64,000 nt of DNA, taken from NCBI RefSeq assembly GCF_900177765.1, contig NZ_FXWI01000003.1, positions 682,001 to 746,000 of the forward strand. The letters are read 5' to 3'. This document shows, piece after piece, positions 31,597 through 34,347 of this stretch; positions within the stretch are counted from its first letter, which is position 1; each line of letters begins with the position of its first letter. Both the position numbers and the translations under genes were made by a program. Under the pieces are notes generated by a model that worked only from the letters and a program-made list of their open reading frames with translations, ran no database searches and was not told the origin of the DNA. This DNA comes from Agreia sp. VKM Ac-1783 (GTDB lineage: Bacteria; Actinomycetota; Actinomycetes; Actinomycetales; Microbacteriaceae).

Positions 31597-31974
31597 GTGA
31601 TCGTCGGCATCGGCGTCGACCTCGTCGACGTGCCCCGATTCGTGCGCTCGATCGATCGCACGCCGGGACTCGTCGAGCGCTTGTTCGCTGAGGGCGAACG
31701 CGGTCGGGCTCCGCGGTCGCTCGCCGCACGGTTCGCGGCCAAGGAGGCCCTGATCAAGGCGCTGGGCGATTCCTCCGGATTTCGGTGGCACGACATGGAG
31801 GTCGTGACCGACGACGACGGCAAGCCGTCGTTCCTCCTCGGCGGGCGGGTGGCCGAGACGGCCCGGGCTCGTGGCGTCGGGACGATCCACCTCTCTCTCA
31901 GTCACGACGGTGACTCGGCCCTCGCGTTCGTGGTCGCCGAGCGTGCCGAACGCGTCAGCAGCGCCGCGCAATGA
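31597..31974 (+). CDS. acpS: Holo-[acyl-carrier-protein] synthase
   Basis: Transfers 4'-phosphopantetheine from coenzyme A to acyl carrier protein. The 125-residue product has the magnesium-binding aspartate in MIVGIGVDLVDVPRF and glutamate in ARFAAKEALIKALG, and ends with LSLSHDGDSALAFVVAE. The start is GTG at 31597, 9 nt after glmS. It overlaps alr by 4 nt. A commonly adjacent NAD(P)HX epimerase gene is absent here. Confidence 0.94.
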   Translation: MIVGIGVDLVDVPRFVRSIDRTPGLVERLFAEGERGRAPRSLAARFAAKEALIKALGDSSGFRWHDMEVVTDDDGKPSFLLGGRVAETARARGVGTIHLSLSHDGDSALAFVVAERAERVSSAAQ

Positions 31975-33083
31975 CGGCTCCCGAGATCGGCACTGCCGCG
32001 GCGCCCGACTCGGTCGCGGCGATAGACCTCGGCGCGGTTCGCCACAACGTCGCCCGATTCGTCTCCCTCGCCGAGGGCGCCCAGGTGATGACCGTGGTCA
32101 AGGCGAACGCTTATGGGCACGGCGCCGCCCAGGTTGCGCGCGCCGCGCTCGACGGCGGGGCCACCTGGTTGGGCGTTGCCGACCTCTCGGAGGCCTTCGA
32201 GCTGAGGCATGCCGGCATCACGCAGCCCGTGCTCGCCTGGCTGCACGAATCGCACGACAACTTCGCGGCCGCGCTCGAGGCCGGCATCGACCTCGGCGTG
32301 AGCGATCTCGGTCAGCTCGCGTCGATTGCCCAGGCCCAGCAGGCTGTCGGGGGAGTTCCCGCGGCCGTGCATCTCAAGCTCGACACGGGGCTGGGGCGCA
32401 ACGGTGCCGGCGAGTCCCAGTGGGGTGCACTCTTCGACGACGCGAGACGACGTGAGCTCTCAGGTCAGCTGATCATCAGAGGCATCTTCAGCCACCTCTC
32501 CAACGCCGACGACGACGAAGACGCACGCCAGCTCGAACGCCTGCACGTCGGGGTGGAGACCGCGCGACAGGCCGGTCTGCGGCCGCGACTTCGGCATCTG
32601 GCCTCGACCGCCGCCGCCCTGCGACTGCCCGCAACGCGACTCGACCTCGTGCGCATCGGTATCGGCGCCTATGGGCTGTCGCCTCTCGATGATGCGGACT
32701 CCGCCGACCTCGGTCTCCATCCGGCGATGACCCTGCGCAGCACGATCGTCGCCGTCGCCCCCTCGTCCGACGCGGATTTCGCAGCCCGATCGGGCATCGT
32801 GCCCCTCGGCTACGGAGACGGTATTCCTCCGCAGGCCGCAGGCCGCATCCACGTGACCGGAAGCTACGGGCGACTTCTCGTGACGCGCGTCGAATCCGAC
32901 CATCTCGTCGTAGAGCCCGTCTCGGCTGGCGCAGATCCTGCACGCGGCGATATCGTGACGCTGTTCGGCGATCCGACCGAGGGCGTCTCCTCTGCCGACG
33001 ACTGGGCACGGGCAGCCGACACGATCAACTACGAGATCGTCACTCGGCTGGGTGACCGTGTGGCCAGGGAGTACATCGCATGA
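31971..33083 (+). CDS. alr: Alanine racemase-like protein retaining the PLP-lysine half
   Basis: A 370-residue member of the PLP-dependent alanine racemase family, which makes D-alanine for peptidoglycan. The barrel keeps K44 in MTVVKANAYGHG (Schiff-base lysine), K136 and R143 in HLKLDTGLGRNG, H175 in GIFSHLSNAD, and R228 in VRIGIGAYG. The C-terminal domain is abnormal: the stretch with the catalytic tyrosine (usually VSYGATY) is deleted between TLRSTIVAVAP and GIVPLGYGDG, and the MDQ motif is replaced by ESDHLVVE. It may therefore need a partner. It overlaps acpS and the next gene by 4 nt each. Confidence 0.85.
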   Translation: MTAPEIGTAAAPDSVAAIDLGAVRHNVARFVSLAEGAQVMTVVKANAYGHGAAQVARAALDGGATWLGVADLSEAFELRHAGITQPVLAWLHESHDNFAAALEAGIDLGVSDLGQLASIAQAQQAVGGVPAAVHLKLDTGLGRNGAGESQWGALFDDARRRELSGQLIIRGIFSHLSNADDDEDARQLERLHVGVETARQAGLRPRLRHLASTAAALRLPATRLDLVRIGIGAYGLSPLDDADSADLGLHPAMTLRSTIVAVAPSSDADFAARSGIVPLGYGDGIPPQAAGRIHVTGSYGRLLVTRVESDHLVVEPVSAGADPARGDIVTLFGDPTEGVSSADDWARAADTINYEIVTRLGDRVAREYIA

Positions 33084-33856
33084 GCGAGCTCGATGACACC
33101 GTCGACCCGACGTCCCTCGGTCGCGACGCCGCGATCGACCTCGGCGCCTTCCGGGCCAACGTGTCGATCCTCGCCGCTCGGGCCGTCGGCGGCCCTCTCG
33201 TGATCGACATGACCGCGGATGCCTATGGCCACGGACTCGTTCGTCTCGCCCGCGTCGCGGCGGAGTCCGGGGCCGACATCCTCAGTGTGCGCGACGAAGG
33301 TGATGCGCGGAGCATCGCCGACGCGGGAATCGGCATCGACGTGCGCTGGTGGCACACCGAGCGGTTCTCCATTCCCCCCGCAGGATCGGGCATCGCCGCG
33401 TTCGGTTTCGGCATGGAACTCACCGACGGCGCACCGGCCGGCGTCGTTCCCGTGATGACGGTCTCTGCGCCCGTGCTCTCGGTGAAGCGCGTGCCAGAAG
33501 GACACGGAGTCTCGTACGGATTCGTCTATCGGGCCACAAAGGAGACCACGCTCGCCCTGGTCCCGCTCGGTTACGCAGACGGTATACCGCGTGCCGCGAC
33601 GGGCTCCGGACGCATGGCGATCCATGGTCGGCCGTATCCGATCGCCGGCCGCATCGCCATGGACCAGGTCGTGCTCGACGTGGGAGATGCGCCCGTGGCT
33701 CCGGGGGATCGAGCCGTCGCATTCGGGCCAGGCCTCGAGGGTGAGCCGACGGCCGCCGGCTGGGCCAGAGACTCGGGTTCGACGGCGGGGGAGATCCTCG
33801 CGCGCATAGGCCGTCGTGTTCCCCGTCGCTACATCGACCAGGAGGCGGCACGATGA
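33080..33856 (+). CDS. Truncated alanine racemase-like protein retaining the tyrosine/C-terminal half
   Basis: A 258-residue paralogue of the preceding protein. Its PLP-lysine position is Thr45 (MTADAYGHG instead of VKANAYGHG), and roughly 110-130 residues of barrel carrying the other PLP and substrate ligands are missing. The C-terminal domain is canonical: VPEGHGVSYGFVYRATKET with catalytic Tyr146, LVPLGYADGIPR with Tyr165, and PIAGRIAMDQVVLDVGD with Met194-Asp195. It cannot bind PLP covalently alone but could complete the active site of the upstream protein. Overlaps of 4 nt on both sides imply co-translation and argue against a dead gene. Confidence 0.85.
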   Translation: MSELDDTVDPTSLGRDAAIDLGAFRANVSILAARAVGGPLVIDMTADAYGHGLVRLARVAAESGADILSVRDEGDARSIADAGIGIDVRWWHTERFSIPPAGSGIAAFGFGMELTDGAPAGVVPVMTVSAPVLSVKRVPEGHGVSYGFVYRATKETTLALVPLGYADGIPRAATGSGRMAIHGRPYPIAGRIAMDQVVLDVGDAPVAPGDRAVAFGPGLEGEPTAAGWARDSGSTAGEILARIGRRVPRRYIDQEAAR

Positions 33857-34347
33857 CCACCCTGCACAGAGAAATCGTCATCGCAGATCCCGAGCAGATG
33901 GCGTCTCTCGCCCACGAGATAGCCGGGTTGCTCGCTGCCGGCGACGTGATTCTGCTCACCGGCGAGCTCGGCGCGGGCAAGACGACGTTCACGCGGGGTC
34001 TCGGCGAGGCGCTCGGGGTGCGCGGCGCGGTGACGAGCCCCACCTTCGTCCTCGCCCGAACGCACCCCCGACTCGATCCGTCCCAACCTCCCCTCGTGCA
34101 TGTCGACGCCTACCGGCTCTCGAGCGCGGTCGAGCTCGACGACCTCGACATCGACTTCGAGCACTCCATCGTGGTCATCGAGTGGGGCGCCGGCCTCGTC
34201 GAGGAACTCACCGACTCATGGCTCTCGATCACCATCGATCGGCCGCGCGGCGCATCCGATGATCTGGATGCGGAGGCCTGCGACGACGAGGAGCCCATCG
34301 AACCACGCCGGGTCACCATCGACGGCGTCGGCCCACGCTGGCCGTGA
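33853..34347 (+). CDS. tsaE: tRNA threonylcarbamoyladenosine biosynthesis protein TsaE
   Basis: ATPase partner of TsaB-TsaD in making t6A at position 37 of ANN-decoding tRNAs. The 164-residue product has the Walker A LLTGELGAGKTTFTRGLG, then TSPTFVLARTH, VHVDAYRLSS and VVIEWGAGL. It overlaps the truncated racemase gene by 4 nt. A short acidic insertion and tail follow the core. tsaB, rimI and tsaD follow directly. Confidence 0.95.
   Translation: MTTLHREIVIADPEQMASLAHEIAGLLAAGDVILLTGELGAGKTTFTRGLGEALGVRGAVTSPTFVLARTHPRLDPSQPPLVHVDAYRLSSAVELDDLDIDFEHSIVVIEWGAGLVEELTDSWLSITIDRPRGASDDLDAEACDDEEPIEPRRVTIDGVGPRWP

Follow-up and report, generated by a model that had tools for sequence, protein, structure and literature searches.

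A putative obligate heterodimeric alanine racemase encoded by a split gene pair in Agreia

Textbooks describe alanine racemase (Alr), an essential enzyme of the cell wall and a drug target, as a homodimer. In Agreia sp. VKM Ac-1783, a 64,000-nucleotide stretch of DNA (the window; G000:C3:682001-746000, from a 3.76-Mb genome in 7 contigs that is rated 100% complete) contains two overlapping Alr-like genes, a long one (LONG) and a short one (SHORT), each broken in a part of the active site that the other retains. The initial annotation had described two such broken genes, and that observation is confirmed here; its interpretation of the pair as an obligate heterodimer is well supported by the sequence comparisons set out below. 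Very probably, the two subunits arose by complementary decay of a tandem alr duplicate, and the enzyme that they would form in the window makes D-alanine (D-Ala).

Complementary lesions in the window pair

The features of the pair, read from sequence and alignment, are given below in window coordinates, with residue equivalents numbered as in Geobacillus stearothermophilus Alr and with pyridoxal 5'-phosphate abbreviated to PLP.

31971..33083, +: LONG (LONG1), 370 aa, putatively alr1-derived; PLP barrel complete, C domain without the catalytic-tyrosine loop
32100..32102, +: codon of the PLP lysine, K44 of LONG (equivalent to K39)
32754..32790, +, ends approximate: place in LONG where alignment to intact Alr shows a stretch of about 11-12 residues with the catalytic tyrosine (GVSYG) to be missing
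32892..32903, +: ESDH of LONG, residues 308-311, replacing AMDQ, with loss of M312
33030..33032, +: Tyr354-equivalent codon (in TINYE), kept in LONG
33080..33083, +: ATGA, in which the LONG stop and SHORT start overlap (from sequence)
33080..33856, +: SHORT (SHORT1), 258 aa, putatively alr2-derived; barrel truncated, PLP lysine absent, C domain intact
33212..33214, +: ACC (Thr45) at the PLP-lysine position of SHORT
33515..33517, +: catalytic Tyr146 of SHORT (equivalent to Y265')
33572..33592, +: YADGIPR of SHORT, with the Y284' and R290' equivalents
33650..33664, +: R-I-A-M-D of SHORT, with the R309', M312' and D313' equivalents

The Pfam families Ala_racemase_N (PF01168) and Ala_racemase_C (PF00842) both score above their cut-offs in both proteins, with the N-terminal match complete in LONG1 (1-220 of 220) and the C-terminal one confined to 31-127, and with the C domain complete in SHORT1 (1-127) and the N domain reaching only 1-71 of 220. 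Against the TIGR00492 alr equivalog, which has a cut-off of 168, LONG1 scores 233 (above) and SHORT1 125 (below), and in sequence searches the best solved-structure matches of both are alanine racemases. The PLP lysine K39 is present in LONG1 as K44 and absent from SHORT1, which has T45; the catalytic tyrosine Y265' is present in SHORT1 as Y146 and absent from LONG1. Judged by its residues, neither chain holds a full catalytic set. The open reading frames (ORFs) at 31971-33083 and 33080-33856 with their four-base overlaps, the residues K44, K136, R143, H175 and R228 and the ESDH (308-311) of the first protein, and T45, S145-Y146-G147, Y165 and M194-D195-Q196 of the second all read as the initial annotation had described them, and the gap of about 12 residues around the missing tyrosine of LONG comes out at about 11-12 on alignment to intact Alr. 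The letters SYG do occur in LONG1 at about 298-300 (HVTGSYGRLLVT), away from the catalytic place; its relatives have GDGG, GSGG or similar at that spot. The Tyr354 equivalent is tyrosine in 7/7 LONG1 proteins (TINYE in the window) and glycine in 7/7 SHORT1.

A residue-blind comparison used the columns with 95% identity or more across 44 different intact Alrs, 31 in the barrel and 39 in the C domain. The window LONG1 keeps 31/31 of the barrel columns, and the window SHORT1 35/39 of those in the C domain.

According to passages of PMC3485190, PMC3245724 and PMC4517790, from which the cis and trans assignment of active-site residues is taken, each Alr site lies at the dimer interface, with the PLP lysine and barrel contributed by one subunit and the tyrosine and Met-Asp/Arg residues by the C domain of the other. 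Because the sites are shared in this way, the sole full site available to the pair would be that between the LONG barrel (K44, K136, R143, H175, R228, Y354) and the SHORT C domain (Y146, Y165, R171, R191, M194, D195). The heterodimer would then hold one complete site and one dead half-site, and neither homodimer would have a full site. Overlap of the genes may in addition couple translation of LONG and SHORT: an RTGA-type overlap of start and upstream stop is available in 14/14 Agreia pairs and in 26/32 other pairs examined. Association of the two proteins, their activity and substrate, and translational coupling are inferences from sequence.

Both flanks of the pair are themselves overlapped by four bases:

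31597..31974, +: ORF 5' of LONG, overlapping it at 31971-31974
33853..34347, +: ORF 3' of SHORT, overlapping it at 33853-33856

The first we take to be acpS, from the usual actinobacterial order glmS-acpS-alr-tsaE, and the second presumably is tsaE; the pair is accordingly assumed to lie between glmS-acpS on one side and tsaE-tsaB on the other.

Recurrence, fusions and origin of the pair

A second split pair was found elsewhere in the source genome, and LONG2 and SHORT2 denote its proteins and their counterparts. This pair, the fusions and the evidence for a tandem origin all come from beyond the window and so did not figure in the initial annotation. In all, 48 pair loci were compared (14 from Agreia and 34 others), many of them from close relatives, so that they are not 48 independent events. 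LONG was counted in 47, L126 being cut by a contig end, and L124 is cut before the C domain, which leaves 46 LONG C domains visible. In line with the proposal that only a heterodimer could build a full site, the residues are complementary at all 48 loci, and the suggested survey of co-occurrence found every SHORT adjoined by a LONG (the cut one of L126 included). K39, K129, R136, H166, R219 and G221 are kept in 47/47 LONG, and position 43 is tyrosine in 46; Y265 occurs in 0/46, and by regular-expression search the tails have no SYG in the catalytic position. K39 is found in 0/48 SHORT, its position being occupied by Arg in 30 (L123 among them), Thr in 9, Ser in 3 and Gly in 2, with 4 lacking that part of the barrel. 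Y265 and M312 are present in 48/48 SHORT, residue 284 is Tyr or Phe in 48/48, and R290, R309 and D313 are kept in 47, 46 and 44 of the 48, respectively; for H166 and M312 the active-site roles are assumed. In the residue-blind comparison, conserved barrel cells are kept at 212/217 in LONG1 and 1105/1240 in LONG2, and at 85/217 in SHORT1 and 358/1271 in SHORT2, and conserved C-domain cells at 243/273 in SHORT1 and 849/1560 in LONG2.

Both subunits are under purifying selection: the median ratio of nonsynonymous to synonymous substitution (dN/dS) over 21 species pairs each is 0.177 for LONG1, 0.116 for SHORT1, 0.194 for LONG2 and 0.213 for SHORT2.

Within the family, the Microbacteriaceae, PF00842 has a match in 119/120 genomes. 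Forty of the 120, those with matches beyond the ones listed, were searched again and their candidate loci fetched and annotated by BLAST against source-genome genes and with a hidden Markov model built from 16 tandem copies; the remaining 80 were judged mostly from how far the matches extended and how long the ORFs were, those with loci L009-L038 and L082-L088 being checked residue by residue. A SHORT-LONG pair is present in 34/120 genomes, besides G077, the one Agreia in the sample. A gyrB-like gene lies in 32/34 of the stretches around these pairs, and MurT- and GatD-like genes both lie in 21/34. By coverage and ORF length, 33/34 pair genomes (all except G015) hold at least one more Alr-like gene whose C domain is complete; the 10 of these genes that were checked by residue are all intact. 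In G015 itself, a 0.93-Mb genome, the only Ala_racemase_C match comes from the SHORT member of a split pair (L125 3726-5649, +) and the only Ala_racemase_N match from its LONG member, in which Asn replaces Tyr43. A DNA pattern for lysine-less SHORT, which detects only 22/48 known SHORT, matched none of 362 genomes from other families of the order and 2/396 in all (the source and one other of the family). A Thr/Ser variant of the motif, fitting only 7/48 known SHORT, gave 20 loci, all in Microbacteriaceae (Agreia, Gulosibacter, Pseudoclavibacter, [Zimmermannella] faecalis, Labedella and metagenome-assembled genomes). Restriction of the architecture to the family is thus only indicated.

LONG and SHORT parts are joined in a single ORF at the acpS-tsaE locus in 5/120 genomes (G020, G049, G073, G100 and G119); Gulosibacter and Pseudoclavibacter have natural fusions of this long-short kind where the window pair stands, among them one of Gulosibacter macacae (L129 4792-6678, -). 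In G049 and G119 the same ORF also includes a TsaE part:

L118 2186-4555, +, and L119 1688-3952, - (G049, G119): LONG racemase, barrel-less C-domain donor and TsaE in a single ORF at the acpS locus

Besides the fusion, G020, G100, G049 and G119 have no further PF00842 match; extras that match PF01168 only are one ORF of 363-395 aa in each of G049 and G119, and weaker matches in G020 and G100. G073 combines a fusion with a split pair and one more Alr-like gene. The alignment took in ten fusions, of 597-673 aa in the form in which they were cut out; others of the 20 loci were truncated, were split pairs or were omitted. Invariant columns include K32, R135, H167, R220 and TINYE (346-350) in the first half, and S514-Y515-G516, Y534, R540, R560 and M563-D564 in the second. 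Fusion in other genomes, at the locus of the window pair and likewise with LONG first, is strong evidence that LONG and SHORT work as one unit.

Seven other genomes (L082-L088) have full-length alr1-alr2 in tandem at the acpS-tsaE locus. The second copy there has Asp or Glu at the Tyr354 position, which suggests that alr2 may differ in substrate. Four proteins at the SHORT position retain much or most of the barrel without the PLP lysine (L097 3716-5005, L105 2532-3632, L094 2980-4233 and L099 3637-5094) and are apparent intermediates. In four further SHORT no barrel is recognisable (L109 2548-3504, L110 4200-4793, L112 2533-4350 and L114 4179-4829), from which it seems that a C domain alone suffices as partner.

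Trees were built from barrel columns (97 rows) and from C-domain columns (98 rows), with support given by the Shimodaira-Hasegawa-like approximate likelihood ratio test (SH-aLRT). The barrel tree joins LONG1 to tandem alr1 from G125, G007, G011 and G026 (96), and in it LONG2 (39/40) forms one group with all eight tandem alr2 (95), L125 lying outside on a long branch. The C-domain tree places SHORT1 with the eight tandem alr2 (95), and gives groups of their own to Agreia SHORT2 (99) and to the short halves of the fusions (99, 8/9), SHORT1 being apart from both. From these placements the window pair reads as alr1 without its trans residues beside alr2 without its barrel, that is, as reciprocal decay of a tandem alr1-alr2 duplicate into two subunits of what would be an obligate heterodimer. 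The tyrosine loop appears to have been lost separately in LONG1 and LONG2, and the fusions are probably a third separate case, their long halves grouping at 88 only.

Several observations weigh against this reading of the pair. The trees were built quickly from 150-215 columns and carry SH-aLRT values as their only support, and 4/8 tandem alr1 fall away from LONG1 in the barrel tree. The split state is not universal in the genus, since G125 has full-length copies. Loss of the trans half from LONG is incomplete, with D313 left in 36/47, Y284 in 15, R309 in 9, R290 in 4 and M312 in 2, and LONG1 retains 184/273 conserved C-domain cells; conversely, SHORT2 retain only 1135/1599 (71%) of theirs, and Asn replaces D313 in 4 SHORT. 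D-Ala could also come from an enzyme outside the searched families.

Absence of an intact alr, the second pair and substrate

The initial annotation had named an intact canonical alr elsewhere in the genome among the findings that would refute it. By Pfam search the source genome holds no intact Alr: its four PF00842 matches are the two window genes and two at C6, and form two split pairs, and a third, intact alr was rejected. The same layout, with four PF00842 matches all in two split pairs, is found in 7/8 genomes of the genus (the source included), and the other six likewise have no intact Alr among these matches. In the eighth, G125 (96% complete), the only PF00842 matches are those of a tandem of full-length alr1 and alr2. 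The only further PF01168 matches in the source genome are a 233-aa ORF and a 517-aa open frame, which on visual inspection look YggS-like and LysA-like. Ddl, which uses up D-Ala, scores above cut-off in 13/13 genomes checked, and D-Ala is therefore needed. Its supply through a D-amino-acid transaminase (TIGR01121) was rejected, since none of the 13 genomes scores above cut-off; each has 1-3 matches below it, and in the search control only 1/14 genomes lay above it.

The second pair of the source genome lies on the minus strand at G000:C6:

L007 6651-5896, -: SHORT2, 251 aa, with Arg at the lysine position and SYG, GYSDG and AMDV present
L007 5899-4826, -: LONG2, next after SHORT2, with VVKNDAYGHG, no SYG, and EVDR instead of AMDQ

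Upstream of it are MurT- and GatD-like genes in which MurT_C and GATase_3 score above their Pfam cut-offs and which score far too low for the NCBIfam equivalogs of MurT and GatD; the locus also holds a convergent gyrB-like gene. Near four pairs of other genomes, F420_ligase-like and/or ATPgrasp_ST genes replace the MurT/GatD-like ones, and these may encode further peptidoglycan-bridge ligases. They were located by scan as follows:

L099 2318-4123, +: F420_ligase-like and/or ATPgrasp_ST
L103 3179-3970, -: F420_ligase-like and/or ATPgrasp_ST
L109 4418-5146, -, and 3278-4342, +: F420_ligase-like and/or ATPgrasp_ST
L110 3105-4199, +: F420_ligase-like and/or ATPgrasp_ST

Passages of PMC3485190, PMC3245724 and PMC4517790 describe Tyr354 as a cis residue, and it touches the PLP phosphate and gates the substrate in favour of alanine. 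The window pair is flanked by the neighbours that full-length alr has in eight inspected genomes, and it is because of this and the retained Tyr354 that it probably makes D-Ala. At position 354 the LONG of the second pair has Glu, and over 47 LONG the count is 23 Asp, 16 Glu, 7 Tyr (LONG1) and one gap. Charged residues at this position lowered alanine activity in another Alr, according to PMC4517790, and lysine-preferred and broad-specificity racemases (Lyr, Bar) have Thr or Ala there according to PMC3485190. In lacking Tyr at 354 the LONG of the second pair fits the Lyr/Bar trait, and that of the window does not. According to PMC5945732, the peptidoglycan of Agreia belongs to type B2-gamma and contains L-diaminobutyrate (L-DAB) and D-ornithine (D-Orn). 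The residue at 354 and this composition together are the ground for a guess, put forward tentatively and with slightly more doubt than belief, that the second pair (L007 4826-6651, -) makes a D-diamino acid (D-Orn or DAB); it is thus a candidate supplier of D-diamino acids for type-B peptidoglycan.

Exchange of the two roles, with the window pair a heterodimeric racemase of ornithine, diaminobutyrate or another amino acid and the second pair the source of D-Ala, would agree with the presence of two pairs and with a peptidoglycan containing L-DAB and D-Orn (PMC5945732), for which two racemases are expected. It is unlikely, given that the neighbours of the window pair are those of full-length alr in the eight inspected genomes and that the alanine-selective Y354 is in the window LONG and Glu in that of the second pair. 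Slightly less likely still is that LONG is active alone, through a substitute residue or other PLP chemistry, with SHORT as its allosteric activator or chaperone in the manner of trypanosomatid S-adenosylmethionine decarboxylase (AdoMetDC) and its prozyme. LONG does keep an entire PLP site, and dead-paralogue activators are known (PMC5201418 and PMC3663545); an activator, however, would not need the trans catalytic residues, yet SHORT keeps Y265 and M312 in 48/48, and the tyrosine is found in 0/46 LONG with a visible C domain.

Taken singly, each gene lacks some of the active-site parts, as would be expected of functionless duplicates in decay or of an assembly error. Recurrence of the architecture in 7/8 genus genomes and the low dN/dS argue that the layout is due neither to chance nor to sequencing error or decay; strong purifying selection, the lack of any other Alr, and the fusions elsewhere point the same way. 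Pseudogenes or misassembly are rejected on these grounds of selection and conservation, and the chance that we assign to them is negligible. An obligate heterodimer making D-Ala from the window pair is therefore preferred. A wider account would cover one family and two loci, at which homodimers repeatedly became obligate single-site heterodimers, fused in some genera and in two genomes joined to TsaE, so that the D-Ala and D-Orn/DAB enzymes of Agreia are both of this kind and the genome has no self-sufficient Alr; we put it at just under an even chance.

Relation to known systems

A literature search, with most subscription journals outside its reach, found no natural heterodimeric Alr among the papers listed, and within the literature searched the window pair would be the first natural obligate one. 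Related genomes show the apparent ancestor (tandem alr1-alr2), intermediates, split pairs and fused forms, and this series makes the evolution of an obligate hetero-oligomer from a homo-oligomer directly testable on one enzyme. With the Alr/DadX homodimers of fold type III (TIGR00492, PF01168 and PF00842; PDB 1vfh, 5fac and 1xfc) the pair shares the fold, as judged by sequence, the PLP lysine, the catalytic tyrosine and sites formed at the interface. It differs from them in having two genes with complementary lesions and at most one site per dimer. In work by Strych and Benedik of 2002, mutant Alr/DadX subunits are said to have acted on each other by complementation; those were engineered point mutants, whereas the subunits of the window pair are natural paralogues. 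Serine palmitoyltransferase (LCB1/LCB2) is a heterodimer of a PLP enzyme in which one paralogue lacks the lysine, but it is of fold type I, and both fold and reaction are unrelated to those of the window pair. That the dimer is essential for Alr is stated in a passage of PMC3245724 citing Strych & Benedik 2002. In the deoxyhypusine synthase and AdoMetDC/prozyme of trypanosomatids (PMC3663545, PMC5201418), an impaired and a dead paralogue together form an active enzyme; their folds and reactions are other ones, and those papers present them as enzymes activated by a dead paralogue.

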